Shown piece after piece: positions 15,177-34,519 of a stretch of 40,699 bases of DNA. The translations under genes and the position numbers were made by a program. Each line of letters begins with the position of its first letter. The stretch's first letter is position 1. Source of the DNA: a virus; IMG/VR virus record IMGVR_UViG_3300020445_000013, positions 1 to 40,699 of that record; one strand, given 5' to 3'. Under the pieces are notes generated by a model. That model was not told where the DNA came from and searched no databases. It worked only from the letters and a program-made list of their open reading frames with translations.

Positions 15177-17110
15177 AGTTTTTCTTCTAAGACGGGCACT
15201 TTGGTTGTATCTACTAGTTCGCATACGTTTCCAACACACGCTAACTCTTGCGAACCTGTAGTATTGTCGTCATTTTCATAGTCTTGTAGCTCTTTAAAGT
15301 TAATTTTGGATGGCATTTCTTTACTTAACTTAATGTATTCATCCTTATTAACCTCTTGGTAAGGGGCTTGTTGGTAGTTATGTTCAACGTGAGGAAGGAA
15401 ACTTATTCCTGCAATCTCATCAAAGTTCTCATATACCCAAGCACCAACCTTTAACCACTCAGCCTCTCTAACACTAATAGTTACTGAAGGTTTATGTTCA
15501 CACCAATACTTTTGATACATTAACCACAAATCTAATTGTTGGATTGCAGACATATCATTTCGTGTAATAGATTTATCTGGAGATTTTATAGGGAAAGAAA
15601 ATACAATTACATCACTAGGCTTAGTAATGTCGGGTTCGTGAGGAATACCTTTATCAATTAAGAACCTTGTAAGTGGGTCTTTAGCATCTCCTCTTACAGT
15701 TCTTATATAGTAATCACTATGTCTTGAATGTATCCCTGAGGCACTATCAACTAATTGACTGACAGTACCTGAGGGTTTGACACACGTAATAGCTGCTGAA
15801 TGATTAATCTTTAGTTTCTTAGCAAAAGCTTTATTAGTTTCTACTGCAGTATTTCTTAACTGTTTAAGATTTTCCTTTGTAGGTTTGCTTGTTAGGCGGT
15901 TATCCATAATACCTGTAAGTGAAACACCTAATAGTCTTTCAGCTTCAGTATTATCTCTCCAAATTTTTCTAAGATATTTTAAATCAGTAAGTGTTGATTG
16001 AAATGTCCCAAGTATTGTAGCAAGTCTTATCTTCTCTTTTAACTCAAGCATATTGTCATTAGCTCTAATGACTACTTCAGTTAAATTACAGAATTGATAT
16101 GGCCTTAAAATAATTTCACAACAAGGATTGGTTCCAAACTCAAAATCAGTATCGCGTCTCTCATTCTCAGCAGCTTTATTCTTTGCAGCAAGTCGATTAA
16201 AGATTCCTCTTTCACCTGACTTACTATCATATAAAGATTTCCACTCAGACATGAACAATCCCATATCAGGTGTACGTGAATAACAAGCTGAGTTATTTGC
16301 TAATGCTCTTTGACCATTCTCTAACCACCATTGACCAGACTTTGCTTTTCTCATTTGGTCATCTTGAATACTACTAAGGGAGATAAGAGCTGAACGCCTT
16401 ACTCCTCCTACAACAACTACTTCACCAACTTTGCAAACTAAATCGTGAGCTTCAATAGCATCAAGCTTTCTGCCTGCTGCTTTGGTAAACATATCAATTG
16501 CAAAGTCGAATAAGTTTACAAGAGGTTGAGCTCCACTAGCCCTGCCTCCCATTGTTTTTAACCTTGCGCCTGCTGGTCTAATTCTTGAAACATCTACTTT
16601 AGGAATTTGTCCGCCATATAACATGGCAAGTAATTCTCTAAATGCTCTAGCCCAACCTGCTTTACTATCTTGAACGACAATAACAGTTTCACTTTCGCTA
16701 AACTCTTCTGCAATGACAGGTAACTTTTCAATGTTGTTTCTTTCAACAGAAAAACCAACACCCGTACCGCATAAAAGAATATACATAACTTCATCAAAAC
16801 TTCTCACATCATCTATCGGAATATAGCTGCAATTGTAACCTGCAGTATTATCCCTCTCTAGTGCTGCACCAGCTGTCATTAGAGCACGCATCGAAGGCAT
16901 AATGCTTAATGATAATACCGCCCCTTCTAACTCGTTTCGTAGTTGACTAGGTAATTTGAAATTATGATTTTTCCTTAAGTGCTCTTCCATAAAATCAAAA
17001 TAACGTTCTACAGTTTCACTCCAAGTTTCTCTTCTACCCTTTTCATCTATGTATCTAGCGTAGCGTGAAGTGTGAATGTATTGCTGGTAAGAGGAAGGCA
17101 AACTATTCAT
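15155..17110 (-). CDS. nrdJ: Class II (B12-dependent) ribonucleotide reductase, monomeric type
   Basis: A 651-residue enzyme that reduces ribonucleotides to deoxynucleotides for phage DNA synthesis using adenosylcobalamin. The residues match the Lactobacillus RTPR type: C94 (NCSYIPI), the active-site N328-P-C330-C-E332 block, C341 exactly 11 residues after C330, and a C-terminal C625-x4-C630 pair that would reduce the active site. The spacing of these cysteines equals that of C408/C419 and C731/C736 in RTPR. The start used is the ATG at 17108-17110, overlapping the upstream stop; a TTG two codons earlier is possible. After C630 there are 21 extra residues, and their codons hold a promoter-like site. 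Class II enzymes need no oxygen and suit B12-using marine hosts. Confidence 0.93.
   Translation of the reverse strand: MNSLPSSYQQYIHTSRYARYIDEKGRRETWSETVERYFDFMEEHLRKNHNFKLPSQLRNELEGAVLSLSIMPSMRALMTAGAALERDNTAGYNCSYIPIDDVRSFDEVMYILLCGTGVGFSVERNNIEKLPVIAEEFSESETVIVVQDSKAGWARAFRELLAMLYGGQIPKVDVSRIRPAGARLKTMGGRASGAQPLVNLFDFAIDMFTKAAGRKLDAIEAHDLVCKVGEVVVVGGVRRSALISLSSIQDDQMRKAKSGQWWLENGQRALANNSACYSRTPDMGLFMSEWKSLYDSKSGERGIFNRLAAKNKAAENERRDTDFEFGTNPCCEIILRPYQFCNLTEVVIRANDNMLELKEKIRLATILGTFQSTLTDLKYLRKIWRDNTEAERLLGVSLTGIMDNRLTSKPTKENLKQLRNTAVETNKAFAKKLKINHSAAITCVKPSGTVSQLVDSASGIHSRHSDYYIRTVRGDAKDPLTRFLIDKGIPHEPDITKPSDVIVFSFPIKSPDKSITRNDMSAIQQLDLWLMYQKYWCEHKPSVTISVREAEWLKVGAWVYENFDEIAGISFLPHVEHNYQQAPYQEVNKDEYIKLSKEMPSKINFKELQDYENDDNTTGSQELACVGNVCELVDTTKVPVLEEKLWKMTKI
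15179..15203 (-). promoter_or_regulatory. Candidate phage promoter inside RNR 3' end
   Basis: Minus-strand CAAAGTGCCCGTCTTAGAAG followed by AAAAA differs from the intergenic site at 1006-1030 at only a few positions. It codes for KVPVLEEK in the RNR tail and lies just before the small gene at 15176. Placement is comparable to T7 phi6.5, which feeds the structural genes. Confidence 0.6.
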
Positions 17111-17357: not shown

Positions 17358-18088
17358 AGTTTAATTCCTCCTGACTCATAGTCGTAATCGTTGTATCTTA
17401 AAATTTTTGCGACCCTTGCTTGTTGCAACGCTTCATCAGTTGAATAGCCAACCTTTGCGTAAGCAGCTAGAACACGTTGCCAGAGGTCTAAGAGGGGTAC
17501 GTTAATGTTATCGCCTAAAATCTTTTGAGCTGTCTTCACTCCAACTTTAGGACAACCTGAATATCCATCTGTGGCATCACCACAAAGAGTCTGCATCATG
17601 TGCCAATAGTTGGCCTCATCCTCGCTTATCTCATCAAAGGTTTTTCCATCTCTTGAGATTTTGCTTGGGATTTGTAAAAGGTCTTTATCAATTGAAACTA
17701 CAATTCGTTCATCATTATTGTTGGGTGTTGTTGCAAGTATTCCTAGTACATCGTCTGCCTCAAGCCCCTCCATAATAACAGCGCTGTAGTTATCAATGCA
17801 GTATTGACGCAACACAGGTAGCATCATTGGTTTACGTTTTGACTTTCTATTATCTTTATAACTTGGAAGAATATCTTTTCTAAAATTATTCTTATCCGTT
17901 AATGCAATAATAAATTTCTCAGCTTCAAGGTTTTCTTTCAGCTGTTCTAGTTGTGTATCTAATTCTGCTTTACAAAGTTTTTCGTCAGAATGTAAAGTCC
18001 ATAACCCGTCTCCCCAATGAGTAGGTATTTCATTTTGAGTAGCAATCTTGTAAATAAGAATATCACCATCAATTAATAGTGTTCTCAT
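17342..18088 (-). CDS. 5'-3' exonuclease (T7 gp6-like, FEN family)
   Basis: A 248-residue flap/5' exonuclease that removes primers and degrades host DNA in T7-type phages. Acidic metal-binding motifs are visible in order: LLIDGDILIY at residues 4-13, FRKDILPSYKDNRK near 70, GLEADDVLG near 108, SIDKDLLQIP near 133, and GDATDGYSGCPKVGVKTA near 170 (a helix-hairpin-helix-like end). It follows the DNA polymerase and a small nuclease-like gene, with a 20-base overlap upstream. A promoter-like site lies inside the gene at 17481-17504. Confidence 0.93.
   Translation of the reverse strand: MRTLLIDGDILIYKIATQNEIPTHWGDGLWTLHSDEKLCKAELDTQLEQLKENLEAEKFIIALTDKNNFRKDILPSYKDNRKSKRKPMMLPVLRQYCIDNYSAVIMEGLEADDVLGILATTPNNNDERIVVSIDKDLLQIPSKISRDGKTFDEISEDEANYWHMMQTLCGDATDGYSGCPKVGVKTAQKILGDNINVPLLDLWQRVLAAYAKVGYSTDEALQQARVAKILRYNDYDYESGGIKLWRTS
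17481..17504 (-). promoter_or_regulatory. Promoter-like site inside exonuclease gene
   Basis: Minus-strand AACGTACCCCTCTTAGACCT shares 14 consecutive bases (GTACCCCTCTTAGA) with the intergenic site before the tail fibre gene. It is within codons for NVPLLDLW. Such a long identity by chance is unlikely in 41 kb, but the downstream AGAAGA part is missing, so activity is uncertain. Confidence 0.4.
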
Positions 18089-23904: not shown

Positions 23905-26349
23905 TTACGCAAAGAAGAACTCACTCTGTTTTAACATTTCAATTTCAAGCTTTCCTTTTTTTGGAAGCTCAGGAAGTTTTGCTCTAGCTTCTTCTGGTAT
24001 TAGTTGTGCAATACCTTCTTTAAAATCTGCAAGAACATCATTTTCAGAAAACACTTTTATAAACGCATCCCTTAAACATTCATTTAAAGTTTGTACGTCT
24101 GCAGCTGTAGTTCCAAAACTATCATGCACGTTACAGAAATTAGTTATCCCTTTTTGATAAGCAAGGTTGACTGTAGTCATCATTGAAGCACTATCTAAAC
24201 TATGAACAAAGTTAGCAGCAACTCCATTAACCATTCTGCGCCTGTCGGTCGTATCAAGCTCTGTATTTAGTCGAGGTTTAATAATCTCTCCCATTAACAT
24301 TGCTTTCACTCTCATAGAACGCACTTCTGGATAAGCCTGATAAATTGGAAAGCCAACAGGGTTAATCCAATGAATAGGTAATTGCTCCTTACAAACAACA
24401 CGGGCAATAGCTTGTAAGAAATCCATTCCCTCTCTTGCTGATTTAAGGTTGTCTCCAATGCTATCCCAAATCAAATGAGATAGATAAGAACTTGGCTTTA
24501 GTATCTCATGTCCGAAAGGATGCTTTTCGCCCCTATCTAAACGTTCCTGTATGTTTTCTTTTACAAAGTCAGTACAGCTATAACGGGTGCTGCCATAGCA
24601 GATAGTCATAATGCTACGCTTTGTAGTTGAACGCTTTACTCCATAATTTAACCAAGCTTGAGCATAAGGTTTACCCTCTGCCACATCTTTTTTAAGCCTC
24701 TCAGTAACATTATCAGCAATAACTTGATAAATGTCTTGAGGAGTATCAGTAACAGTAAGGTTTACAAGTTTACCTGCTTTCTCATCTCTGAGCATTAACG
24801 AGTAAAGTTGAAGCCCATTACAGCTACCATCAACAGAAACGGGAATATGAGAAACAAAGCCGTCCCCTTGCTCCTTAAATTGTTTCCACTCATTACAGAA
24901 AGCTAAGAATTGATATGGGCTATCAGCATCATTCCATTGCAAGTTAGCAATAGGGTCTGTAGCGCAGTCAATTATCCATTCCTCATTCTTCTCAACCCAT
25001 TTAACTCTGTCAGCTAATGAACATTTGTCTTTACCATAACAATTGGCTCCATGAACAGCTAACCAAAAGTCTCCTTTATTTTCTTTGGTAATTGGCTTGC
25101 CCTGTGAAAACTCAAGAAGAGCTTTAGCTCCTCCAATAGATTGATAATTTAAAAATGCAGGGACACAATAAACCCTAGACCTAAAATCCATTTGAAGAGG
25201 ATAGTAGATATGTGTCTTATCCTTAAACTCCTTAGCAATATGGAGTATTCTTCCAAACAATTGACGTTTAGAATCAGCTCTCTTATTTTCTCCATGAACA
25301 ATTGTCGCTTTAGCTTTCCACTTTATTAGAGATTCCTTATTGGTATCTATATCGTGGGGTTTATTGGGTACGGGCTTTAATTCAGTTGAAGGCATTTCCC
25401 CCCACTCATACCCGTTGTCAAAAGCATGGTTCATAACATCTAGGACAAAATGATTAATCCTGAAAGGTGTATTCTGCATAGCATTGACTGCATGATAGAC
25501 CTCAGGCATCTGGAAGTTTTCTAACTCCTCTTTAAACTTTTTATTCTTTTGTTTAACCAAGTCCAATGGAGGCAATTCAGCAGTCCAATAGGCTCCTCCC
25601 TCTGGGGAAGTCCATTCTTTAGGCTTCATAACAATAGGCTTATATTCGGGTGATAATAATTCATTCCATAGATTGCGGTTAGAAATCCATTCACGGGTCT
25701 TATCTGTAGCCTTAATGATATTAGCTCGTTTCTTTTTAATAATTGTAGTGCCTTTCTCTATCAGGCCTGTACTTTCAATCATTAAACTTGTTAAACGAAT
25801 GCCAATATGGAGCTTATCTGTCTTAGACCACTCCTCCCATGCAACATGGCCTCGTTTTGCACTCTCACGTAGTTTTCTGCGCTTATAAGCATAACTCCAG
25901 CTACGTTTGTCTAAATCCATCTTTACTGTCCCGTAAAGCTCAGGATTAAGGTTCTTGTAATTTTTAAGTTGAACCTCAGTCTCTATTTTACCGCCTAGAG
26001 CTATAGAACTAGCGGTAAAGGCTTTTTGCTGGGTTATCGAGTTAAGAATATGCTTCGCTGTGATAAGTGCAGAAATTTCTGGTTCTACCTCACATAATTT
26101 TAAATAGGCTATTTCTGGCCTACCTGTATTTCTTTTTGACTCGGCTGTTAGGTATTCATTGATTGCTTGGGCTAAAGGCCTAATGGTTGCTGCCACCATT
26201 GCTTTCCCATAAGAGGTAACGCTTTCTTCACCACGTTGTACGTGTGATAAACGTCTTTTGGAAGTTCTTTGCTTACCACCTTCCTTCATTTGCTTTTCGA
26301 GAGCAAATTGGTCTTGGTAAGTCGGTAGGGTTTCAATTATTTTCGTCAT
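23905..26349 (-). CDS. T7-type single-subunit RNA polymerase
   Basis: An 814-residue DNA-dependent RNA polymerase that transcribes middle and late phage genes. Core motifs are present: PVSVDGSCNGLQ (motif A Asp), KRSTTKRSIMTICYGS (motif B Lys) and NFCNVHDSFGT (motif C His-Asp), with FVHSLDSASM before it. The region corresponding to the T7 specificity loop reads AYPEVRSMRVKAMLMGEIIK, unlike T7, so the promoter sequence should differ. I choose the ATG at 26347-26349 (AAAGGAG nine bases upstream); an ATG three codons earlier has no spacing, and a longer reading to 26397 crosses a palindrome. The gene lies directly left of attP. Confidence 0.96.
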   Translation of the reverse strand: MTKIIETLPTYQDQFALEKQMKEGGKQRTSKRRLSHVQRGEESVTSYGKAMVAATIRPLAQAINEYLTAESKRNTGRPEIAYLKLCEVEPEISALITAKHILNSITQQKAFTASSIALGGKIETEVQLKNYKNLNPELYGTVKMDLDKRSWSYAYKRRKLRESAKRGHVAWEEWSKTDKLHIGIRLTSLMIESTGLIEKGTTIIKKKRANIIKATDKTREWISNRNLWNELLSPEYKPIVMKPKEWTSPEGGAYWTAELPPLDLVKQKNKKFKEELENFQMPEVYHAVNAMQNTPFRINHFVLDVMNHAFDNGYEWGEMPSTELKPVPNKPHDIDTNKESLIKWKAKATIVHGENKRADSKRQLFGRILHIAKEFKDKTHIYYPLQMDFRSRVYCVPAFLNYQSIGGAKALLEFSQGKPITKENKGDFWLAVHGANCYGKDKCSLADRVKWVEKNEEWIIDCATDPIANLQWNDADSPYQFLAFCNEWKQFKEQGDGFVSHIPVSVDGSCNGLQLYSLMLRDEKAGKLVNLTVTDTPQDIYQVIADNVTERLKKDVAEGKPYAQAWLNYGVKRSTTKRSIMTICYGSTRYSCTDFVKENIQERLDRGEKHPFGHEILKPSSYLSHLIWDSIGDNLKSAREGMDFLQAIARVVCKEQLPIHWINPVGFPIYQAYPEVRSMRVKAMLMGEIIKPRLNTELDTTDRRRMVNGVAANFVHSLDSASMMTTVNLAYQKGITNFCNVHDSFGTTAADVQTLNECLRDAFIKVFSENDVLADFKEGIAQLIPEEARAKLPELPKKGKLEIEMLKQSEFFFA

Positions 26350-26389
26350 AGAGTACATCTCCTTTAAAGTTGTATCTATGAAGAAACTA

Positions 26390-26405
26390 AGTTTCACGTG
26401 AAACT
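26390..26405. repeat. Perfect 16-bp palindrome near attP
   Basis: AGTTTCACGTGAAACT is its own reverse complement. It lies between attP and the RNA polymerase start, 40 bases upstream of the ATG, and looks like an operator for a dimeric regulator. Confidence 0.7.
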
Positions 26406-26408
26406 AGC

Positions 26409-26450
26409 AAAGTGCTAGCGTTAATCAATGAACGCTAATCACCGCACTTT
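26409..26450. repeat. Nested dyad symmetry beside attP
   Basis: An outer AAAGTGC / GCACTTT pair (26409-26415, 26444-26450) encloses an inner AGCGTT / AACGCT pair (26417-26422, 26431-26436). It could form a two-step hairpin in the RNA polymerase leader or a protein-binding site. Confidence 0.6.
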
Positions 26451-26458
26451 TCTGTTCT

Positions 26459-26508
26459 ACTGATTTGTAATCAATAGGTTCGCGGTTCAAGTCCGTGTGG
26501 GGGCACCA
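26459..26508 (+). other. attP: attP core: 3' part of a tRNA-Thr(UGU) gene
   Basis: The plus strand reads as the 3' half of a tRNA: anticodon loop TTTGTAA at 26464-26470 with anticodon TGT, stem TCAAT, variable loop AGGTT, T-stem CGCGG, T-loop TTCAAGT, T-stem CCGTG, acceptor strand TGGGGGC, discriminator A and CCA at 26506-26508. The anticodon arm closely resembles bacterial tRNA-Thr(UGU). The 5' half of a tRNA is missing, and the 5' anticodon stem has a mismatch, so the core probably begins there. Its place next to int is that of attP in integrating pelagiphages; integration would rebuild the host tRNA. Confidence 0.85.
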
Positions 26509-26585
26509 CAAGAACGTTGATAAACTTAAGTTTCTTCATAAAGTTTTTATTTTATTATAGCCAAATGATAATCAAAAGCAAAGTG

Positions 26586-27518
26586 CTAGGTGATACTAGC
26601 TAGGTTGTCAATTGGCTTTGCAATGGTTTCAGAAGTTTTAAAGTCATCTAAAACATCTATTGCATCAAGTAGGTCGGTAGGTGCAAAGTGCGCGTAACGT
26701 TGCGTCATTCTTGGATTAGAATGTCCTAATAGTGTTCCTACTTTGTAGAGAGGCGTTCCTGCTTGAACTAACCTCGAAGCGTAAGTGTGGCGTAGGCAAT
26801 GAAGAGTAAACTCTTTGTCATCTTCAAGACCCATTTCAGTTCTTACATCGTTAAATCGATTTTGAACTGTCCAATAGTTCAGGTCAAAAACGACATCTTC
26901 ATCGGTGAGTTTCGCCATTAAAGGTTCAACAATTGCCCTAGCACGTGGCGTTAAAGGAACAACTCTCTTATGCTTCTTAGTGGTTGTGTTACCAGCTAAT
27001 CTTACATAGAGACGAGTTCTACCCTCTTCGTTTTTGTGCTCATGCACTTGTTTAACTTTAAAGCCTAATGCTTCACCTTTACGCATTCCCGTATCAAGAA
27101 GAAATAAGAAGAAGTCTCGATATGTTTCCATATCATGTAAAGACTTACATACTTCTATAAGCTTCTCCTCCTCCTTCTGCGACAGATACCTCTCCCTTTC
27201 ATTATCCAATGGGATATATTCAAAGTACGGCATCGAAGTCATGTGATACGTTTCGTATCTACGATACGCATATTTACACATCTTACTTACAGCAGTCAGG
27301 AAACGATTAATTGAAGCGTCCGTTAGGTCAGCTTCTTTTAACTTCTCCTTTAATGCGTCTATGTGCGCTGTAGTTACCTCTGTTACGAGGATTTGCTTCC
27401 CAAGCATTTCTATAGCTCTTTCACCGAGCCTAGCCTGAGTAGCGTTCCACCCTGCATCTACTACTTTCTTATGTACTGAAGTCAGTAATAGCGGGTTCTT
27501 TATGCTTATAACATCCAT
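26586..27518 (-). CDS. int: Tyrosine recombinase integrase
   Basis: A 310-residue site-specific recombinase. The catalytic set is complete: R146 (DTGMRKGEALG), a Lys around 182-184 in TTKKHKR, H240 and R243 (LHCLRHTYAS), H266 (LLGHSNPRMTQ) and the nucleophile Y275 (RYAHF). The N-terminal 100 residues form the SAM-like DNA-binding domain. The stop codon is 78 bases from the tRNA-Thr-like attP core, and the gene starts 30 bases after the winged-helix regulator gene, so the two are probably co-transcribed. The protein indicates capacity for lysogeny. Confidence 0.96.
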   Translation of the reverse strand: MDVISIKNPLLLTSVHKKVVDAGWNATQARLGERAIEMLGKQILVTEVTTAHIDALKEKLKEADLTDASINRFLTAVSKMCKYAYRRYETYHMTSMPYFEYIPLDNERERYLSQKEEEKLIEVCKSLHDMETYRDFFLFLLDTGMRKGEALGFKVKQVHEHKNEEGRTRLYVRLAGNTTTKKHKRVVPLTPRARAIVEPLMAKLTDEDVVFDLNYWTVQNRFNDVRTEMGLEDDKEFTLHCLRHTYASRLVQAGTPLYKVGTLLGHSNPRMTQRYAHFAPTDLLDAIDVLDDFKTSETIAKPIDNLASIT

Positions 27519-27548: not shown

Positions 27549-28253
27549 TTACTTCCGTTTACGCGAACCTTGCGTCTCCGAAACTCTTTTGATTGCTCTT
27601 TCTACTGTAGCAAGTCTAAAGTCTTTATCAGCATAACGTTTTTTTTGTACCTTAAGAGCACCCTCAATTCTCGCAATTGTTTCTAAAAATCGCTTATGAG
27701 ATTCTTCAAGGTCGCTTTGTGTGCGCCTCAAAGCTAAACTCTCTTCAAGCTCTTTGACATTCATTTTGAACTCAGTCCGAAACTGCCCTTTGCCTGATTT
27801 AACTCTTTTTGGCACTCCTTTGTAGATGACTGTCTCAAAATCATCTTCGATAGACTGAACAGGTTTCACATAATCAACCATTGCGTCATGTATTGCCTGT
27901 CCTCTCGCAGTAACAGAAACCACCTTACGTCTGAGTTCGTTCGGGTCTATTCTTGTTTCAAGTAAACCCAAACCAATATCACGTTCTTTGGTGTATCTGT
28001 TAATACCTGTTCTCTCAGATAATTTTAAAACATTTCTGGAAACTGTCGATTGAGCTAAGTCTAAAGCTCCTCCGATTTCTTCCATCGTTATACCATCAGA
28101 TAGTGTTGTCGTATGTCTAGCTACGTATAGAAAGATTGCTAATTGTTGAGCTTCCATTCGTTCGTCAAGCTCTCTAATTATCTTAACTATACGTAGTAAA
28201 CTTTCAGCTTTGCCTTGACCCGAACTTAAAGTTCTTGTCTTCGTCTTCGCCAT
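27549..28253 (-). CDS. Winged helix-turn-helix regulator (MarR-like), possible lysogeny control
   Basis: A 234-residue protein; I use MAKTKTRTLS at the ATG 28251-28253, which follows a GGGGAGG site. Residues 25-110 fit a MarR-type winged helix: an AIFLYVARHTTTLSDGITME segment, then EEIGGALDLAQSTVSRNVLK as recognition helices, followed by a wing with GLLETRIDPNELRRKVVSVT. The C-terminal half is a long charged coiled coil with a basic end (VSETQGSRKRK), which may dimerise. It lies upstream of int. Regulation of lysogeny or of early genes is an inference from this position; it is not a classic CI-type repressor. Confidence 0.8.
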   Translation of the reverse strand: MAKTKTRTLSSGQGKAESLLRIVKIIRELDERMEAQQLAIFLYVARHTTTLSDGITMEEIGGALDLAQSTVSRNVLKLSERTGINRYTKERDIGLGLLETRIDPNELRRKVVSVTARGQAIHDAMVDYVKPVQSIEDDFETVIYKGVPKRVKSGKGQFRTEFKMNVKELEESLALRRTQSDLEESHKRFLETIARIEGALKVQKKRYADKDFRLATVERAIKRVSETQGSRKRK

Positions 28254-28419
28254 TGTTATCCTCCCCTTTTTTAGAATGTGCAACTGTAGGAACTAAACCT
28301 ATTATGGTTGTTGGTGCAAACTGCGATGATTTATTTTTTTTAAATCTCCAAATGTTCCCAATGTTACCTAAGGACAAGTATTTACTCACCCTGTATGTTG
28401 CTCGTCTTCCACTACTCAT
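28204..28419 (-). CDS. Small basic protein overlapping two regulators
   Basis: A 71-residue ORF (MSSGRRATYRVSKYLSLGNI at the start). Its ATG overlaps the stop of the preceding gene as ATGA, and its 3' end overlaps the winged-helix gene by 50 bases, so translation is probably coupled through all three. The N-terminal half is basic, and the C-terminal end is acidic/polar. No family recognised. The tight ATGA overlap is the main argument that it is real. Confidence 0.5.
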   Translation of the reverse strand: MSSGRRATYRVSKYLSLGNIGNIWRFKKNKSSQFAPTTIIGLVPTVAHSKKGEDNNGEDEDKNFKFGSRQS

Positions 28420-28589
28420 ACTTTTTTATCGTAGTATTTCTTAGCTTCAGTCAAAGCCAACTTCTCAATTACTTTTGCAATTGAAAAATCAACTCCGTGC
28501 TCTTCTTTGAGCTCAGACTGCAACCTTGTTAAATCTGTACGTGCTTTCTTAGTAACACTTACAGAACTATATCGTACGTTATCTGGCAT
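28416..28589 (-). CDS. Small DNA-binding-like protein (57 residues)
   Basis: Short gene, ATG at 28587-28589 with a GGAG site seven bases upstream. The product begins MPDNVRYSSVSVTKKARTDL, then LTRLQSELKEEHGVDFSIAK and an amphipathic end with ALTEAKKYYDKKV. A short strand (SSVSVT) followed by two helices resembles ribbon-helix-helix proteins such as Arc or antitoxins. It starts the likely operon of regulator, integrase and RNA polymerase. The RHH call is by fold pattern only. Confidence 0.6.
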   Translation of the reverse strand: MPDNVRYSSVSVTKKARTDLTRLQSELKEEHGVDFSIAKVIEKLALTEAKKYYDKKV

Positions 28590-29507: not shown

Positions 29508-29604
29508 GCTGTCTAGTAAACAACCCCACTAAGCAACATGAACAAAGAAGTTATGTGCTGTCTAGTAAACTACGCAAATTTGGTAAGACACGCTGTCTAG
29601 TAAA
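29508..29604. repeat. 13-bp motif cluster A (three copies)
   Basis: GCTGTCTAGTAAA occurs at 29508-29520, 29557-29569 and 29592-29604. The first and third copies extend into dyads with a constant CTAGTAA centre (GGGGCTGT...ACAACCCC and GCTGT...ACAGC). They lie before the 52-residue membrane protein gene. Confidence 0.85.
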
Positions 29605-29716
29605 CAGCGACATAACAAAACAAGCAAAAAAGCTCAGGGGAGAAAGAAAAAAATCCCTGTACTTTTCACTTGTCATTTCTTCACTTAATTAGGGGCATAT
29701 ATAAGACCCCCTTAAA

Positions 29717-29758
29717 TGAAGCCAAGAGAGATACAGTCTAGTATCTCCCTCAGTTTCA
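29717..29758 (-). other. Covarying long hairpin H1
   Basis: An 18-bp stem with one mismatch and a six-base loop, immediately after the stop codon of the gene at 29760. Outer strands TGAAACTGAGG and CTTGGCTTCA are shared with H2 and H3, while the inner pairs differ in a compensatory manner (GGAGATAC / GTATCTC). Its loop contains TACTAGAC, the core of the 13-bp motif. No clear T-tract, so an RNase III-like processing site is more likely than a terminator. Confidence 0.7.
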
Positions 29759-29759
29759 C

Positions 29760-29942
29760 TTAATTTTTTTGATTAAAAAGCTTATCCAACTTAGCAACTA
29801 TTTGTTTCTTAGTAGTTCCTAGTGGGTATTTCTTAGAACTGTATTTTCCTTTTAGCATCATTTGAGAGCTAAAAGTTCCATCTTCTAAATCAATATTAAT
29901 TGAATAATGATTGTCCGTATCCATGTGGTTCGTATAAATCAT
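29760..29942 (-). CDS. Small hypothetical early protein (60 residues)
   Basis: A 60-residue ORF starting MIYTNHMDTDNHYSINIDLE, with the repeated leader CAAACAAACAAGGAG five bases upstream. The sequence has alternating hydrophobic residues suggestive of a small beta-sheet and a basic, helical C-terminus (KKQIVAKLDKLFNQKN). It is followed directly by hairpin H1. No homology recognised; the leader and hairpin shared with other early genes support its reality. Confidence 0.6.
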   Translation of the reverse strand: MIYTNHMDTDNHYSINIDLEDGTFSSQMMLKGKYSSKKYPLGTTKKQIVAKLDKLFNQKN

Positions 29943-29948
29943 ATTGAC

Positions 29949-29970
29949 TCCTTGTTTGTTTGATTATCTC
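29949..29970 (-). promoter_or_regulatory. Repeated leader / ribosome site, copy 3
   Basis: Minus-strand GATAATCAAACAAACAAGGAG. The same AATCAAACAAACAAGGAG leader precedes the 66-residue gene (30268-30290) and, with one extra ACAA unit, the 175-residue gene (31715-31740). An unstructured CA-rich leader probably gives strong ribosome access. Confidence 0.65.
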
Positions 29971-29980
29971 CATTGTTAAA

Positions 29981-30020
29981 TGAAGCCAAGAGAGCTGAAT
30001 TTACAGCTCCCTCAGTTTCA
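29981..30020 (-). other. Covarying long hairpin H2
   Basis: A 17-bp stem (one mismatch) and loop TAAATT. It shares outer strands with H1 and H3 but has an inner GGGAGCTG / CAGCTCTC. It follows the stop of a possible 14-codon ORF after the 66-residue gene. Confidence 0.7.
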
Positions 30021-30062
30021 CTTATTTTTTAAGTATTCTTCGTGATAAAAAAATATATTCAT
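30018..30062 (-). CDS. Possible 14-residue microprotein
   Basis: ATG at 30060-30062 overlaps the upstream stop as ATGA and has GGAG five bases before it. The product is MNIFFYHEEYLKNK. The stop is inside hairpin H2. Coupling makes translation possible; the length makes it unprovable here. Confidence 0.25.
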   Translation of the reverse strand: MNIFFYHEEYLKNK

Positions 30063-30259
30063 TGTAGCTCCTGACCGCAACCGCCTTCATCACTATTAAT
30101 AAGTTTGGTGGTTAGTTCTACAAATTCCTCATTATCATTACATTCTATTAATGTTTCGTATTCACAACTATTCAAACTATAATCCTTTAAAAAGTAAAAA
30201 TTTATTTCTTTATTAGGATTACAATTTTTTAATCGCCTTATTAATTCTTTGACTTTCAT
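30059..30259 (-). CDS. Small acidic early protein (66 residues)
   Basis: A 66-residue ORF starting MKVKELIRRLKNCNPNKEIN, ending in an acidic, Cys-containing stretch (INSDEGGCGQELQ). An N-terminal amphipathic helix, a strand region (INFYF) and acidic segments suggest a compact alpha/beta fold of the kind seen in small phage proteins of the form KVKELIxxLxxxNP. It has the repeated leader and a copy of the 13-bp motif directly upstream. Function unknown. Confidence 0.65.
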   Translation of the reverse strand: MKVKELIRRLKNCNPNKEINFYFLKDYSLNSCEYETLIECNDNEEFVELTTKLINSDEGGCGQELQ

Positions 30260-30267
30260 TTTTTGTT

Positions 30268-30290
30268 CTCCTTGTTTGTTTGATTGTTTG
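30268..30290 (-). promoter_or_regulatory. Repeated leader / ribosome site, copy 2
   Basis: Minus-strand AACAATCAAACAAACAAGGAG before the 66-residue gene; directly preceded by a 13-bp motif copy, so here motif and leader abut. Confidence 0.65.
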
Positions 30291-30602
30291 CTGTCTAGTA
30301 AAAGAAAGACACTAGAATAATTGAAAGGCGCTTATGGCTCACAGCAACATAAGTCGAACTCTTTTATTCTCTCAATGTCTATCTAATAAACAGCTGTCTA
30401 GTAAAGACGGCTTGCTTTAGTGACTGTTCTGTTTCATTTGTATTCTGCTCAGTCAGCAACATAAGTATTAAGATGTACACCTATGTAGAACCTAAAGTTT
30501 GCCGTCTAGTAAAGAAAGCAAGTGCAGGCAACCACCACCCGTTTTTTAAAGAGGTCTGCCCTCTACAGGTCGCACTTAGGTCTGCATTTGCCGTCTAGTA
30601 AA
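30290..30602. repeat. 13-bp motif cluster B (four copies)
   Basis: Copies at 30290-30302 and 30393-30405 (GCTGTCTAGTAAA) and at 30501-30513 and 30590-30602 (GCCGTCTAGTAAA), all in the same orientation. A degenerate copy (TGTCTATCTAATAAA) lies near 30376. CAGCAACATAAGT is also repeated near 30341 and 30454. No convincing ORF is seen between 30303 and 30868; a TATGAGAT / ATCTCATA dyad lies at 30728-30756. Confidence 0.85.
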
Positions 30603-30868
30603 GAGAAAGCAACCAAGTCAGAATCGGAGCTTGTATGTCCCATTTTTATATACCTGAATTAGGCTTGGGTTCTCTCCGAACCGCACTGTGGAGGATGCCC
30701 GTGCCGTTGGCTAGTACTCGGATATACTATGAGATAAACTAGCAATAAATCTCATAGATTCTATTTAGACCCGTCCTCATCTGCGTTTGTGTATTAGGCG
30801 CTTCAATAATTACTTTCTCAATCTTCATTAATAACAAAAGAAATACACTTCTTTATATTGCTATTAAA

Positions 30869-30905
30869 CGAAGCCAAGAGGGAGCAAAGCTCCCCCTCAG
30901 TTTCA
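30869..30905 (-). other. Covarying long hairpin H3
   Basis: A 17-bp stem with one mismatch and a TTT loop, just after the stop of the 41-residue membrane protein gene. Same outer strands as H1/H2, inner GGGGGAGC / GCTCCCTC. Confidence 0.7.
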
Positions 30906-30906
30906 T

Positions 30907-31032
30907 TTAAATTATATTTAGTTCTATTAGCACCACTAGCATTACACCAAGTGGAACGACATAATAGATACCTTTAGGATGCTCGTAATAGTAACAAAAG
31001 ACATCCCAAGCCTTAAGAATGAACTTTGTCAT
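30907..31032 (-). CDS. Small membrane protein (41 residues)
   Basis: I use the ATG at 31030-31032 (MTKFILKAWDVFCYYYEHPK), with an AAAGGGG stretch upstream; a GTG start at 31107 would add 25 basic residues without a good ribosome site. The C-terminal half is one membrane helix (IYYVVPLGVMLVVLIELNII). Followed immediately by hairpin H3. No family recognised; early single-span membrane proteins may protect the infected cell or modify its envelope. Confidence 0.55.
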   Translation of the reverse strand: MTKFILKAWDVFCYYYEHPKGIYYVVPLGVMLVVLIELNII

Positions 31033-31179
31033 TTGGTATCTTGCCCCTTTCTCTAAGAAAATTAATTGTCTTTCTTTGAACTGATTTTGGCAACGTTTCA
31101 AAGCCACCCAAGAAATAAGCCTTCAAGGGATTTTGCATTGCGCTCAATCTTATTCTATTTTTATGTGTGTCTATAAAGG

Positions 31180-31707
31180 TCATTCCGCCACCGCCTTTTT
31201 TCTAAATTGCAATGACTTGTAGTCAGGTAAGCGCCCTTCTTTGTTTAATTGCCTCACCCTTTCTTCAGATGCTTCAATCGCCTTTTCAACTAACTCATAA
31301 TAAGTAAATTCAAAAGGGTTATAAAAGCTAGTCTGACCTTCTGCCCAAGCTTGGAAGTCTTCTTCAGTAAGTCCGTCCTCCCATGAGGCATCTTCTGCCC
31401 TTTGCCATAAGCTTATCTCATAGCAAGCTGACTTATCATTGAATTTAAAATGATATAAAAACTCAATGTCCCCATGTTCGCCCGTTGTTAGTTCATAGCG
31501 ATTGTCTACTAAAAAAGAATTAACAAAATTAAATATGTTAACCTTCTGCGCTTCCTCCTTATTGCCGAAGCAATGCGCATCTACAGTAGATTGTTGTAGT
31601 TTGTCGTAAACGTCCTTGCCTGTTTCAGACAAGTAGCCGTCCCAATGACGATATATCCAAATATTAGTATCGCCATAAGTTATTCTTATATTGCATCTTG
31701 TGCCCAT
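31180..31707 (-). CDS. Conserved phage early protein, MGTR...YRHWDGY type
   Basis: A 175-residue protein starting MGTRCNIRITYGDTNIWIYR with HWDGYLSETGKDVYDKL following. A start of MGTR(x)xI and a YRHWDGY motif are seen in a widespread family of uncharacterised phage proteins; I recall the pattern but cannot name a function. The middle has alternating strand-like segments (DIEFLYHFKF, CYEISLWQRA); the end is a basic helix. It is the first clear gene of the early region, with the longest version of the CA-rich leader and a TTATAGGGGACA stretch upstream. Confidence 0.7.
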   Translation of the reverse strand: MGTRCNIRITYGDTNIWIYRHWDGYLSETGKDVYDKLQQSTVDAHCFGNKEEAQKVNIFNFVNSFLVDNRYELTTGEHGDIEFLYHFKFNDKSACYEISLWQRAEDASWEDGLTEEDFQAWAEGQTSFYNPFEFTYYELVEKAIEASEERVRQLNKEGRLPDYKSLQFRKKAVAE

Positions 31708-32160
31708 AAGATTTTCTCCTTTGTTTGTTTGTTTGATTGTCCCCTATAAATAGAGGTAAGAAAGCACAGCAGGATATAATCCCTTGCCCCTATGCTTTCA
31801 TATCTCTATTTAAAGATTGAATATGGAACGACCTACTTAAGAAAATCTTACCGCCTTCGTTCCGTGCACTCCTTGCGTGCTGGTCTACATCCGACTAGTC
31901 CCTGTTCATCCGACTTAGTTCTCAGGGGCGAACTACCATAAACGTTTATTTTGCTTCGAGATGCCTCAGGAGGTTAACGCCAAAAAATGCTCCCCGTTAA
32001 TACTTAAAAAGAATCTAACTACTAACTGATATCATCTATGTAACGATTAATCATTAAGTTGCAACCCCTAAATACAAAAAAAGTGAAAATAATTTAAAGA
32101 GGCAATAAAAGGTAGGTAAGTATTAATAATAGTGGGGGTGGGTATAGTAAGAGAATAGCT

Positions 32161-32233: not shown

Positions 32234-32256
32234 CTATCTTCTATACGGGTACTTTA
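32234..32256 (-). promoter_or_regulatory. Promoter-like site at start of early region
   Basis: Minus-strand TTAAAGTACCCGTATAGAAG followed by ATAGC. It resembles the sites at 1006 and 15179 but is one base shorter between CCC and TAGAAG. Confidence 0.45.
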
Positions 32257-32465: not shown

Positions 32466-32891
32466 TTACGTAAGGGTTCTCATTTTAAGAGAAAGGGCTT
32501 CTGCCCTATTAGGCGTTTGTTGAGCCCACTTACTATCCATCATCTCCCAACCTGCATCCATGTAATCATTCTTCTTTAAAGCTGCGAGCATATTCTTAAA
32601 TTTAGAGACTCCAAATTCACCTAATTGGAACACCATCTCAACTACAATACCAAATGCTGTCGGGTGAGTCTTTTCTTCTTCTATGAGTCTCTTTGCTCCA
32701 TTAAGAGCCTTTTCAAAATCATTATCAAATAACTTTAACCAACCTTCTTCAGTTGTAGGTATCTCTTCTCCCTCTAGTATCTTATGTCCTATTCCACCTG
32801 TTAAGTGTCCCTCCGTGCATTTGTAGGGTTCCAAGCGATAGCCTTCGTGTTTTTTAATTGAATTTTTTATTTCGGAATATTTCATATCCAT
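32466..32891 (-). CDS. T4-type lysozyme (GH24 endolysin) with Cys at the catalytic Asp position
   Basis: A 141-residue endolysin that would cut the glycan backbone of peptidoglycan at lysis. The T4 lysozyme catalytic block aligns without gaps: E16 (T4 E11), C25 (T4 D20) and T31 (T4 T26) within HEGYRLEPYKCTEGHLTGGI. The Asp-to-Cys change is striking; engineered T4 D20C is known to keep activity, so the enzyme may well work. There is no signal peptide, so export needs a holin. It overlaps the terminase stop by ten bases, with AAAGGAG four bases before the first ATG; a second ATG at 32885 forms an ATGA overlap. Confidence 0.9.
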   Translation of the reverse strand: MDMKYSEIKNSIKKHEGYRLEPYKCTEGHLTGGIGHKILEGEEIPTTEEGWLKLFDNDFEKALNGAKRLIEEEKTHPTAFGIVVEMVFQLGEFGVSKFKNMLAALKKNDYMDAGWEMMDSKWAQQTPNRAEALSLKMRTLT

Positions 32892-34519
32892 TTATCTCCT
32901 TTAGGTTTTCTTCCTATTGTTGTTTCCATAAATTTTTCTAAATCTCTGTCCAATAATTCTGCTTTGTGTTCGTCAAATGCGAGTATCTGGTCTCTGTCCA
33001 TTCTCTCCACCCAATAGTTAGCTGCTATTGCTAATGCGTCTATCTGGTCATCATGCCTTAAGGCTCCCTTATCTCTTGTAATCCTAGTCATCTGTCTAAA
33101 CAGTTGATGGTCTGGAGCTAGCTGGAAGTCATCTTTAACAATCTCTTCATCCACTACAAGCCTGTGCGTGTTCATAATAGGCTCTAAGGTATCAATGATA
33201 CGCTTCTCCTTTTGGATTGAGTGTCTTACTTCTTCAATCTCGCAAGGATGTATCTTTGACATAACAGGTTTAAGCAACTGAGTTGCCATTCCATCACCAA
33301 AGTTAGACTCAATAACCACGTAATTAACGCTTTGAGCTTTGGCAATATTTGCTAATTGCTCCAAAGTCTCTCCTGAATATCCTCCATCAAGAGCACCTAT
33401 GGCTGTTAAGTACAAAATGCCATGCAACATTTTCAGTACGCAATAAGCTGTTTTATCTTCTCCACGCCCTGAGGGGTCAATTGACATAACTGAACCCTCA
33501 AAAGGCGCAAATTCATCACTCATATATAAATATGAGGTGAAGTAATCAGCTTTAAGACCTACGTTTGGTATATCTGGGCTAACCGCCTGAAGTTGGTCTC
33601 GTCCTGATGCCCATTGTATTTTTGCAGGTGCTTCCTTCCATGAGGTGCAACCTGAAACAAGAATGAGGTCGTTTAGTTTGAGTGGATATTTGTTTGCATC
33701 ACTTAATGTTGTATCCAACATGAATTGCAAATTGAACCCACTTCGCCCATACGAACCAAGACGTTCCATTAAATCGATTTCATTAAACCTATCAGGGTCT
33801 GTTGGTTTACCTTCAAGGTCTTTTTCTTTAGCTATAACTGCAGCTAATTTCTCTCCATAACCTATCTTCTGTAAGTTACTTGGATATAGCGCAGGCCATA
33901 CTCTAGTTTTAAAACCTCTCTCTTCTAAAGAGTTATAAAGAGACATTTCTGTTTGTGGTGTGCCTAAAAAGACAATCCTACCTACCTCTGGTTTAATAAT
34001 CGCATCAAATTCTTTTACAGTTTCACCTAATCGGTCTCTCATTAGCTGTGTCTGAGAGTTATTTGCACTCTCAACGTCATCTGCAATAATTAAATCCGCC
34101 CTTGAGCCTGTTAGCTGGCCTGTTATTCCCATAGACTTAACTGAAGGTGCGTGTGAAGCTCTCGCAGGAGCAACATCAAAGCTAACCTTACTGTGTCTTT
34201 GATTATCTCTAGGTTGTAGGTGAGTTAGTATTGGCATCTCACTAATCAACCTTTGTGTGAATGTTGAGAAGTCATCAGCTCTAGTTTTACTAGCTGAGAC
34301 CACTAAAATATTCCTATTAGGATTTAATAGTAATTGATGACAGACGAAAGCTGAAGTAATCCAACTTTTACCGACACCTCTGAAGGCTTGAATGACTAAT
34401 CGTTTGTCTTCCGCCTGCAGGTAATCAGCAATATCGTATTGTATTGGTGTTGGTTCAGGTAAGTTTAAATGTTTCCAACATAAATACAGAAAATTTTTAA
34501 AGTTATTTATCTTACTCAT
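32882..34519 (-). CDS. terL: Terminase large subunit (T7 gp19-like)
   Basis: A 545-residue packaging motor. Walker A is QAFRGVGKSW at residues 44-53, Walker B ADLIIADDVE at 141-150, followed by a coupling region with VFLGTPQTE. The C-terminal RNase H-like nuclease shows MSIDPSGRGEDKTAY near 350, VIESNFGDG near 400 and RHDDQIDALA near 510, supplying the acidic triad. It works with the small subunit to cut concatemers and fill heads. It overlaps the small subunit gene by eight bases. Confidence 0.96.
   Translation of the reverse strand: MSKINNFKNFLYLCWKHLNLPEPTPIQYDIADYLQAEDKRLVIQAFRGVGKSWITSAFVCHQLLLNPNRNILVVSASKTRADDFSTFTQRLISEMPILTHLQPRDNQRHSKVSFDVAPARASHAPSVKSMGITGQLTGSRADLIIADDVESANNSQTQLMRDRLGETVKEFDAIIKPEVGRIVFLGTPQTEMSLYNSLEERGFKTRVWPALYPSNLQKIGYGEKLAAVIAKEKDLEGKPTDPDRFNEIDLMERLGSYGRSGFNLQFMLDTTLSDANKYPLKLNDLILVSGCTSWKEAPAKIQWASGRDQLQAVSPDIPNVGLKADYFTSYLYMSDEFAPFEGSVMSIDPSGRGEDKTAYCVLKMLHGILYLTAIGALDGGYSGETLEQLANIAKAQSVNYVVIESNFGDGMATQLLKPVMSKIHPCEIEEVRHSIQKEKRIIDTLEPIMNTHRLVVDEEIVKDDFQLAPDHQLFRQMTRITRDKGALRHDDQIDALAIAANYWVERMDRDQILAFDEHKAELLDRDLEKFMETTIGRKPKGDKWI

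Follow-up and report, generated by a model that had tools for sequence, protein, structure and literature searches.

A 13-bp joint between tandem hairpin modules in the early region of an HTVC019P-type phage, and the probable exchange of these modules among relatives

Between its small early genes the virus studied here repeats a 13-bp motif, long hairpins and a CA-rich ribosome leader, which raises the question of how these elements are related to one another and what they do. The DNA analysed is an IMG/VR virus record (IMGVR_UViG_3300020445_000013; the whole stretch of 40,699 nucleotides is called the window below), in which the genes are transcribed leftwards, on the minus strand, among them those for terminase (32882-34519), lysozyme (32466-32891), a MarR-like regulator (27549-28283), integrase (26586-27518) and RNA polymerase (23905-26397). 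The nearest annotated phages are HTVC019P-type pelagiphages, with an RNA polymerase identity of 58-67%, and on sequence grounds the phage of the window is T7-like, integrase-carrying and of the HTVC019P type. Judging from the relatives, SAR11 bacteria are probably the hosts of this virus family. The early region is the part between lysozyme and the regulator, and the 13-mers and hairpins therefore sit in the early region.

Pattern and protein scans of IMG/VR for relatives brought in nine additional contigs that have the TTTACTAGAC form of the motif, a hairpin of the kind found at gene stops (H element) or both. The contigs entering the comparison were L008-L012/L037, L033 (partly), L036, L056 and L065, and the comparison is thus based on some ten metagenomic contigs. 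Searching with one protein at a time brought up a single fragment at most. Pairs of the motif spaced more widely in IMG/VR turned out largely to be coding repeats without relation to it, L056 and the known loci being the only true relatives among them, and the matches to a motif-plus-leader pattern were mostly due to chance. The annotated comparison set consisted of 18 whole genomes, namely seventeen isolates (cultured pelagiphages) together with a single fosmid. The 13-mer and the hairpins alike proved to be conserved in relatives, which the preliminary description of this DNA had named beforehand as the deciding test.

The 13-mer and two families of hairpins

The motif GCYGTCTAGTAAA has seven exact copies (starting at 29508, 29557, 29592, 30290, 30393, 30501 and 30590), where dinucleotide shuffles lead one to expect 0.01. 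All lie on the plus strand, antisense to the genes, and form two clusters, which bears out what had first been described; no extra copy within two mismatches was found anywhere in the 40.7 kb window. Read on the sense (minus) strand as TTTACTAGACGGC, the first copy (joint 1, 30590..30602) is the start of a hairpin module, Y, and in L037 and L036 the block downstream of it is preceded by other blocks. It is followed by joint 2 (30501..30513), by joint 3 (30393..30405), at which L036 has a different block downstream of the same upstream one, and by joint 4 (30290..30302), which stands directly upstream of a CA-rich leader in an arrangement shared with L008, L036, L037 and L056. Joint 5 (29592..29604), joint 6 (29557..29569) and joint 7 (29508..29520, within a local hairpin), all on the minus strand, make up a three-copy cluster before the block of ribbon-helix-helix (RHH) gene, regulator and integrase, and this cluster is conserved in relatives.

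The 13-mer reads as the joint between tandem hairpin modules, a TTTACTA linker followed by a GACGGC arm. Each module (M module) has the form TTTACTA-[GACGGC...body...GCCGTC]-TTTACTA, is about 60-110 nt long and carries the ends TTTACTAGACGGC and GCCGTCTTTACTA, so that the joint linking one module to the next is TTTACTAGACRGC. The first bases of a block (GACGGC...) tend to pair with its own last bases (...GCCGTC), while the positions upstream of the 13-mer are unconserved and the left arms are degenerate. Since the 13-mer is at once a joint and the 5' arm of a second family of hairpins, beside that at the gene stops, the array is one of hairpin beside hairpin. Among 22 nonredundant modules, pairing with a module's own end exceeded pairing with the ends of other modules (permutation, p = 4e-5); about a third of the motif-bounded blocks have no end pairing, which counts against the explanation that we prefer below. 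In module Y (30514..30602, minus strand), which runs from joint to joint, the sense fold is accompanied by six two-sided and four one-sided compensated pairs across the window, L036 and L037, and module Q carries a paired 2-nt deletion, one in each arm. Module X (30406..30513, minus strand) has the base stem GACGGC/GCCGTC, and in the third motif-bounded block (30303..30405, minus strand) the hairpin starts away from the joint and end pairing is not above chance. A small hairpin across the joint itself (GCYGTC-loop-GACRGC) was rejected as a conserved unit for the window's group, because its energy was unchanged when the 5' flanks were swapped among sites.

The H elements have the form TTAAATGAAAC...GGCTTCGTTTAA and stand at or near gene stops. 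Three were found in the window on the minus strand, H1 (29708..29766, with a stop codon in its base stem), H2 (29968..30028) and H3 (30856..30913), and all three follow or overlap a possible stop, as had been proposed; H1 and H3 start right at the stop codon and H2 about 30 nt past a stop, while the ORF preceding H3 (GTG start, 30907-31107) is an uncertain gene. That they are truly covarying hairpins was borne out by one covariance model, which gives them 60-67 bits on the minus strand and 23-29 bits on the opposite strand (the window copies being in the training set). In an alignment of ten copies from six phages, two-sided compensatory changes were present in 7 of 19 pairs, a result reached by none of 500 shuffles, and 97.9% of cells pair, as against 57% at most once the partner is slid. 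It had also been suggested that the H1 loop, by carrying the core of the 13-mer (ACTAGAC), links the two elements; the match is absent from the other nine aligned copies and is probably a coincidence.

The comparison thus shows that both the M and the H hairpins fold on the transcribed strand and are kept by compensatory changes. The G-U pairs on the sense strand point to RNA, single-stranded DNA of the same polarity being compatible as well. Rfam had no match to either hairpin, and a search of the isolates with the covariance model found no H elements (best E about 0.09).

The remaining constant part, the CA-rich leader of CAATCAAACAAACAAGGAG type, does recur as first described, with three copies on the minus strand of the window: one in front of a 175-aa early gene (31180-31707) at 31721..31738, one with a ribosome-binding site at 30268..30285 and one at 29948..29965. 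Two small minus-strand genes lie among these elements, one of 66 aa (30059..30259), which has other genes in its place in relatives, and one of 60 aa (29760..29942) with an orthologue in L036. Behind the identical last joint and leader of the array, five phages have five different first genes.

Exchange of blocks at the joint

From joint to joint, module X is 94% identical to L036 over 119 nt (30513-30395), its upstream flank is unalignable, and the block that follows this stretch in L036 is the one that precedes it in the window. In a table of 45 joint sites, blocks were re-paired with different neighbours, upstream or downstream, at eight places or more, and L065 gave one more re-pairing at a joint. 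The cleanest case is that of L037 and L056, in which both flanks are 98% identical and one phage has modules S and Y where the other has Q and R. When all early-region alignments were compared with rotated sets of motifs, 73 of 278 alignment end-points fell at the 13-mer, as against 28 +/- 7 expected (2.6-fold; reached by none of 1000 rotations), the end-points of related pairs not being independent. A joint of 13 bp is shorter than the word sizes used by assemblers, and joins at the 13-mer are therefore unlikely to be assembly artefacts.

Taken together, the early gaps very probably consist of hairpin modules that are exchangeable and joined to one another at the 13-mer. The preliminary description had proposed a modular region in which small genes are swapped between constant control parts, and much of this stands, as the elements are constant, different genes follow the joint and leader, and blocks are re-paired at the 13-mer. 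What does not stand is the 13-mer as an element independent of the hairpins, and the swaps concern mostly noncoding hairpin modules and small genes secondarily.

The core in cultured pelagiphages

The core of the motif, ACTAGACGG, was found in 25 copies in the 18 annotated genomes, all 25 in sense orientation and preceding the RNA polymerase gene, with no copy on either strand in the remaining 668 kb. We attach no probability to this, because the copies are related by descent. Some fall inside annotated genes. In the isolates most intergenic copies belong to a terminator-like hairpin, as its 3' arm with a T-run behind it; the arms are kept and the body is 4 to about 60 nt long. The centre of the joint measures 7, 8, 9 or 11 nt depending on the phage. 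GACGGC is thus a 3' arm in the isolates and a 5' arm in the window's group, which likewise counts against our preferred explanation.

Several further features of these genomes were noted in passing. Directly before the MarR gene the isolates have a conserved 40-aa protein (L022 2669-2797, L023 2895-3023 and equivalents), and they have a second tiny peptide ending GNQNGW...NAP; several of the tiny ones are unannotated. A third family of early hairpins, CTTAAAGCCTATC...GGTAGGCTTTGAGA, is common to HTVC019P, HTVC022P and the distant HTVC120P (L019 1503-1533 and 1840-1870; L020 1022-1052; L029 about 2240-2290). HTVC120P has about five copies of an early repeat of its own, CTAGGGGCGA (L029 1737-1790 and 2289), which is perhaps the counterpart of the 13-mer. 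Directly after the capsid gene of several isolates there is a hairpin enclosing a conserved purine-rich GGGAGACTNAA (L014 21317-21404, L015 17987-18063, L029 20608-20693 and equivalents).

Possible functions and known systems

On balance we favour the reading that the hairpins are processing and 3'-end structures of the early mRNA, exchanged by ordinary recombination. The hairpins would separate the early cistrons in the transcript, acting in the window's group as RNase III-type processing and 3'-end-protecting structures and in HTVC019P-type isolates, where a U-run follows, as intrinsic terminators. That function would preserve the joints and arms as constant sequences, and at these short stretches of identity the recombination of the phage itself may swap modules together with the small genes behind them. 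In the early region of T7, RNase III processing hairpins lie between cistrons. The present phage is likewise T7-like, with hairpins that separate early cistrons and lie upstream of or around the RNA polymerase gene, and their covariation on the sense strand is what a conserved hairpin in a putative early polycistronic RNA would be expected to leave. We know of no constant shared ends, tandem arrays or exchange joints at the RNase III sites of T7.

It is possible, though we think it clearly the lesser probability, that the modules are mainly terminators or attenuators that damp early transcription by the host RNA polymerase ahead of the genes for lysogeny and RNA polymerase. Two motif hairpins of HTVC019P score as terminator-like, its early region having 11 such sites where 2.3 are expected, and TTTTTTT follows one module in L037 and L056. 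Against this, the seven joints of the window all lack a T-run behind them, and a scan of the window for intrinsic terminators (GC-rich hairpin and U-run) flags no M joint; the modules there run into UUUACUA, with no proper U-run, and termination is therefore weak on sequence. In the H elements the U-rich part is itself base-paired inside the base stem, and the motif hairpins of HTVC022P went undetected as terminators.

That the 13-mer is a linear operator, read by the MarR-like or the RHH regulator encoded just downstream, we consider unlikely. Such an operator would resemble the stoperators of cluster A mycobacteriophages, which are protein-bound and spread over the genome (PMC9283540, PMC3029335). 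The 13-mers are likewise several asymmetric sites of equal size, intergenic and in a single orientation relative to transcription; unlike stoperators, they are confined to the early region and are part of RNA stems, the right half of the 13-mer being in conserved pairing with the far end of its module. A 57-aa RHH-like protein (28416-28589) is encoded before the MarR-like gene and has no Pfam match above the cut-off. It tracks the TTTACTA form, as it was present in every relative of that form for which the region was available and in 0 of the 18 annotated genomes; since it is absent from the isolates, which still have copies of the motif, it was rejected as a general reader, and integrase-less isolates without a MarR gene have copies too.

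Equally improbable in our view is a phage-borne cassette system with a recombination step dedicated to the TTTACTA joint, by which folded modules would be moved as units; if true, the viruses would maintain their noncoding RNA modules in shuffled order, in an array comparable to that of an integron but noncoding. The modules do resemble integron attC sites in their conserved ends, variable hairpin body and similar length, but they are mostly gene-free and there is no IntI, and no RYYYAAC or GTTRRRY core site was found at module ends. A slightly lower probability still is given to the phage integrase as the agent, moving modules as cassettes through a core site GCYGTC-TTTACTA-GACRGC with the folded module acting like attC. 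In some joints inverted arms do flank a 7-bp centre, and exchange is exact at the joint. However, the length of the centre varies, the left arms are degenerate, and the integrase-less Eistla and HTVC168P have copies of the core. In the exchange between L009 and L008 a module is apparently fused to the remnant of a gene intact in L008 through a shared TACTACC, a partial match at the gene end only, which is more readily explained by recombination at short identities than by a strictly site-specific step. The presumed attP lies between the genes for integrase and RNA polymerase (26398..26585, minus strand) and is a piece resembling tRNA-Thr(TGT), flanked by inverted repeats of its own, ATGAAGAAACTTAAGTTT ... 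AAACTTAGTTTCTTCAT; at the equivalent position of L037 Rfam reports a tRNA; the 13-mer was accordingly rejected as an arm-type site or part of attP, the attachment core lying about 3 kb away.

A promoter of the phage RNA polymerase can be dismissed with near certainty: joint 4 does stand directly upstream of the leader and TAGAC is similar to a portion of certain late promoters, but the 13-mer is early in all of its copies, never following the RNA polymerase gene in the 18 genomes, its upstream positions are unconserved, and a different candidate promoter, AAAGTACCCNTNNTAGA, stands before middle and late genes. Candidates like AAAGTACCCNTNNTAGA occur on the minus strand of the window at 1013-1028, 15186-15201, 17487-17502 and 32239-32254, a count not above chance there, and six times in HTVC109P.

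Returning to processing and 3'-end structures that are exchanged by ordinary recombination, the closest described system is that of the PeSLs, mobile regulatory cassettes of T4-type phages that combine an early promoter and a terminator stem-loop (Arbiol 2010 and Comeau 2014, as cited in PMC4503421). As far as that description goes, the two share short, repeated, early intergenic stem-loops at which blocks of small early genes are shuffled between related phages; the present phage differs in being T7-like and in having two hairpin families, one of them in tandem, so that noncoding modules themselves swap. Of the promoter component of PeSLs, as outlined there, nothing above chance was found here, a consensus scan giving 11 host-type promoter-like sites where 12.5 are expected (SAR11 promoters may differ). 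The earlier statement that no system of such form had been described holds for T7-like phages as far as searched and fails more widely, given this T4-type analogue. Another partial likeness is to the SAS/ESAS of cluster K mycobacteriophages, in which a 13-bp asymmetric repeat, mostly in one orientation, lies 3-7 bp before start codons in the non-structural half, before genes of different families and with inverted repeats near about half of the copies; its sequence is unrelated, and no exchange is described for SAS (PMC3203893).

The joint and the two hairpin families offer a concrete route by which early genes and regulatory RNAs may be swapped, with module boundaries that can be predicted from sequence, and they add two RNA families that are new to Rfam. 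Pelagiphages are among the commonest marine viruses, and their early regions, made of tiny genes for host takeover of unknown function, vary fastest. The shuffling of hairpin cassettes, known from T4-type phages, would thereby be extended to a T7-like family in which the promoter part is dispensed with.
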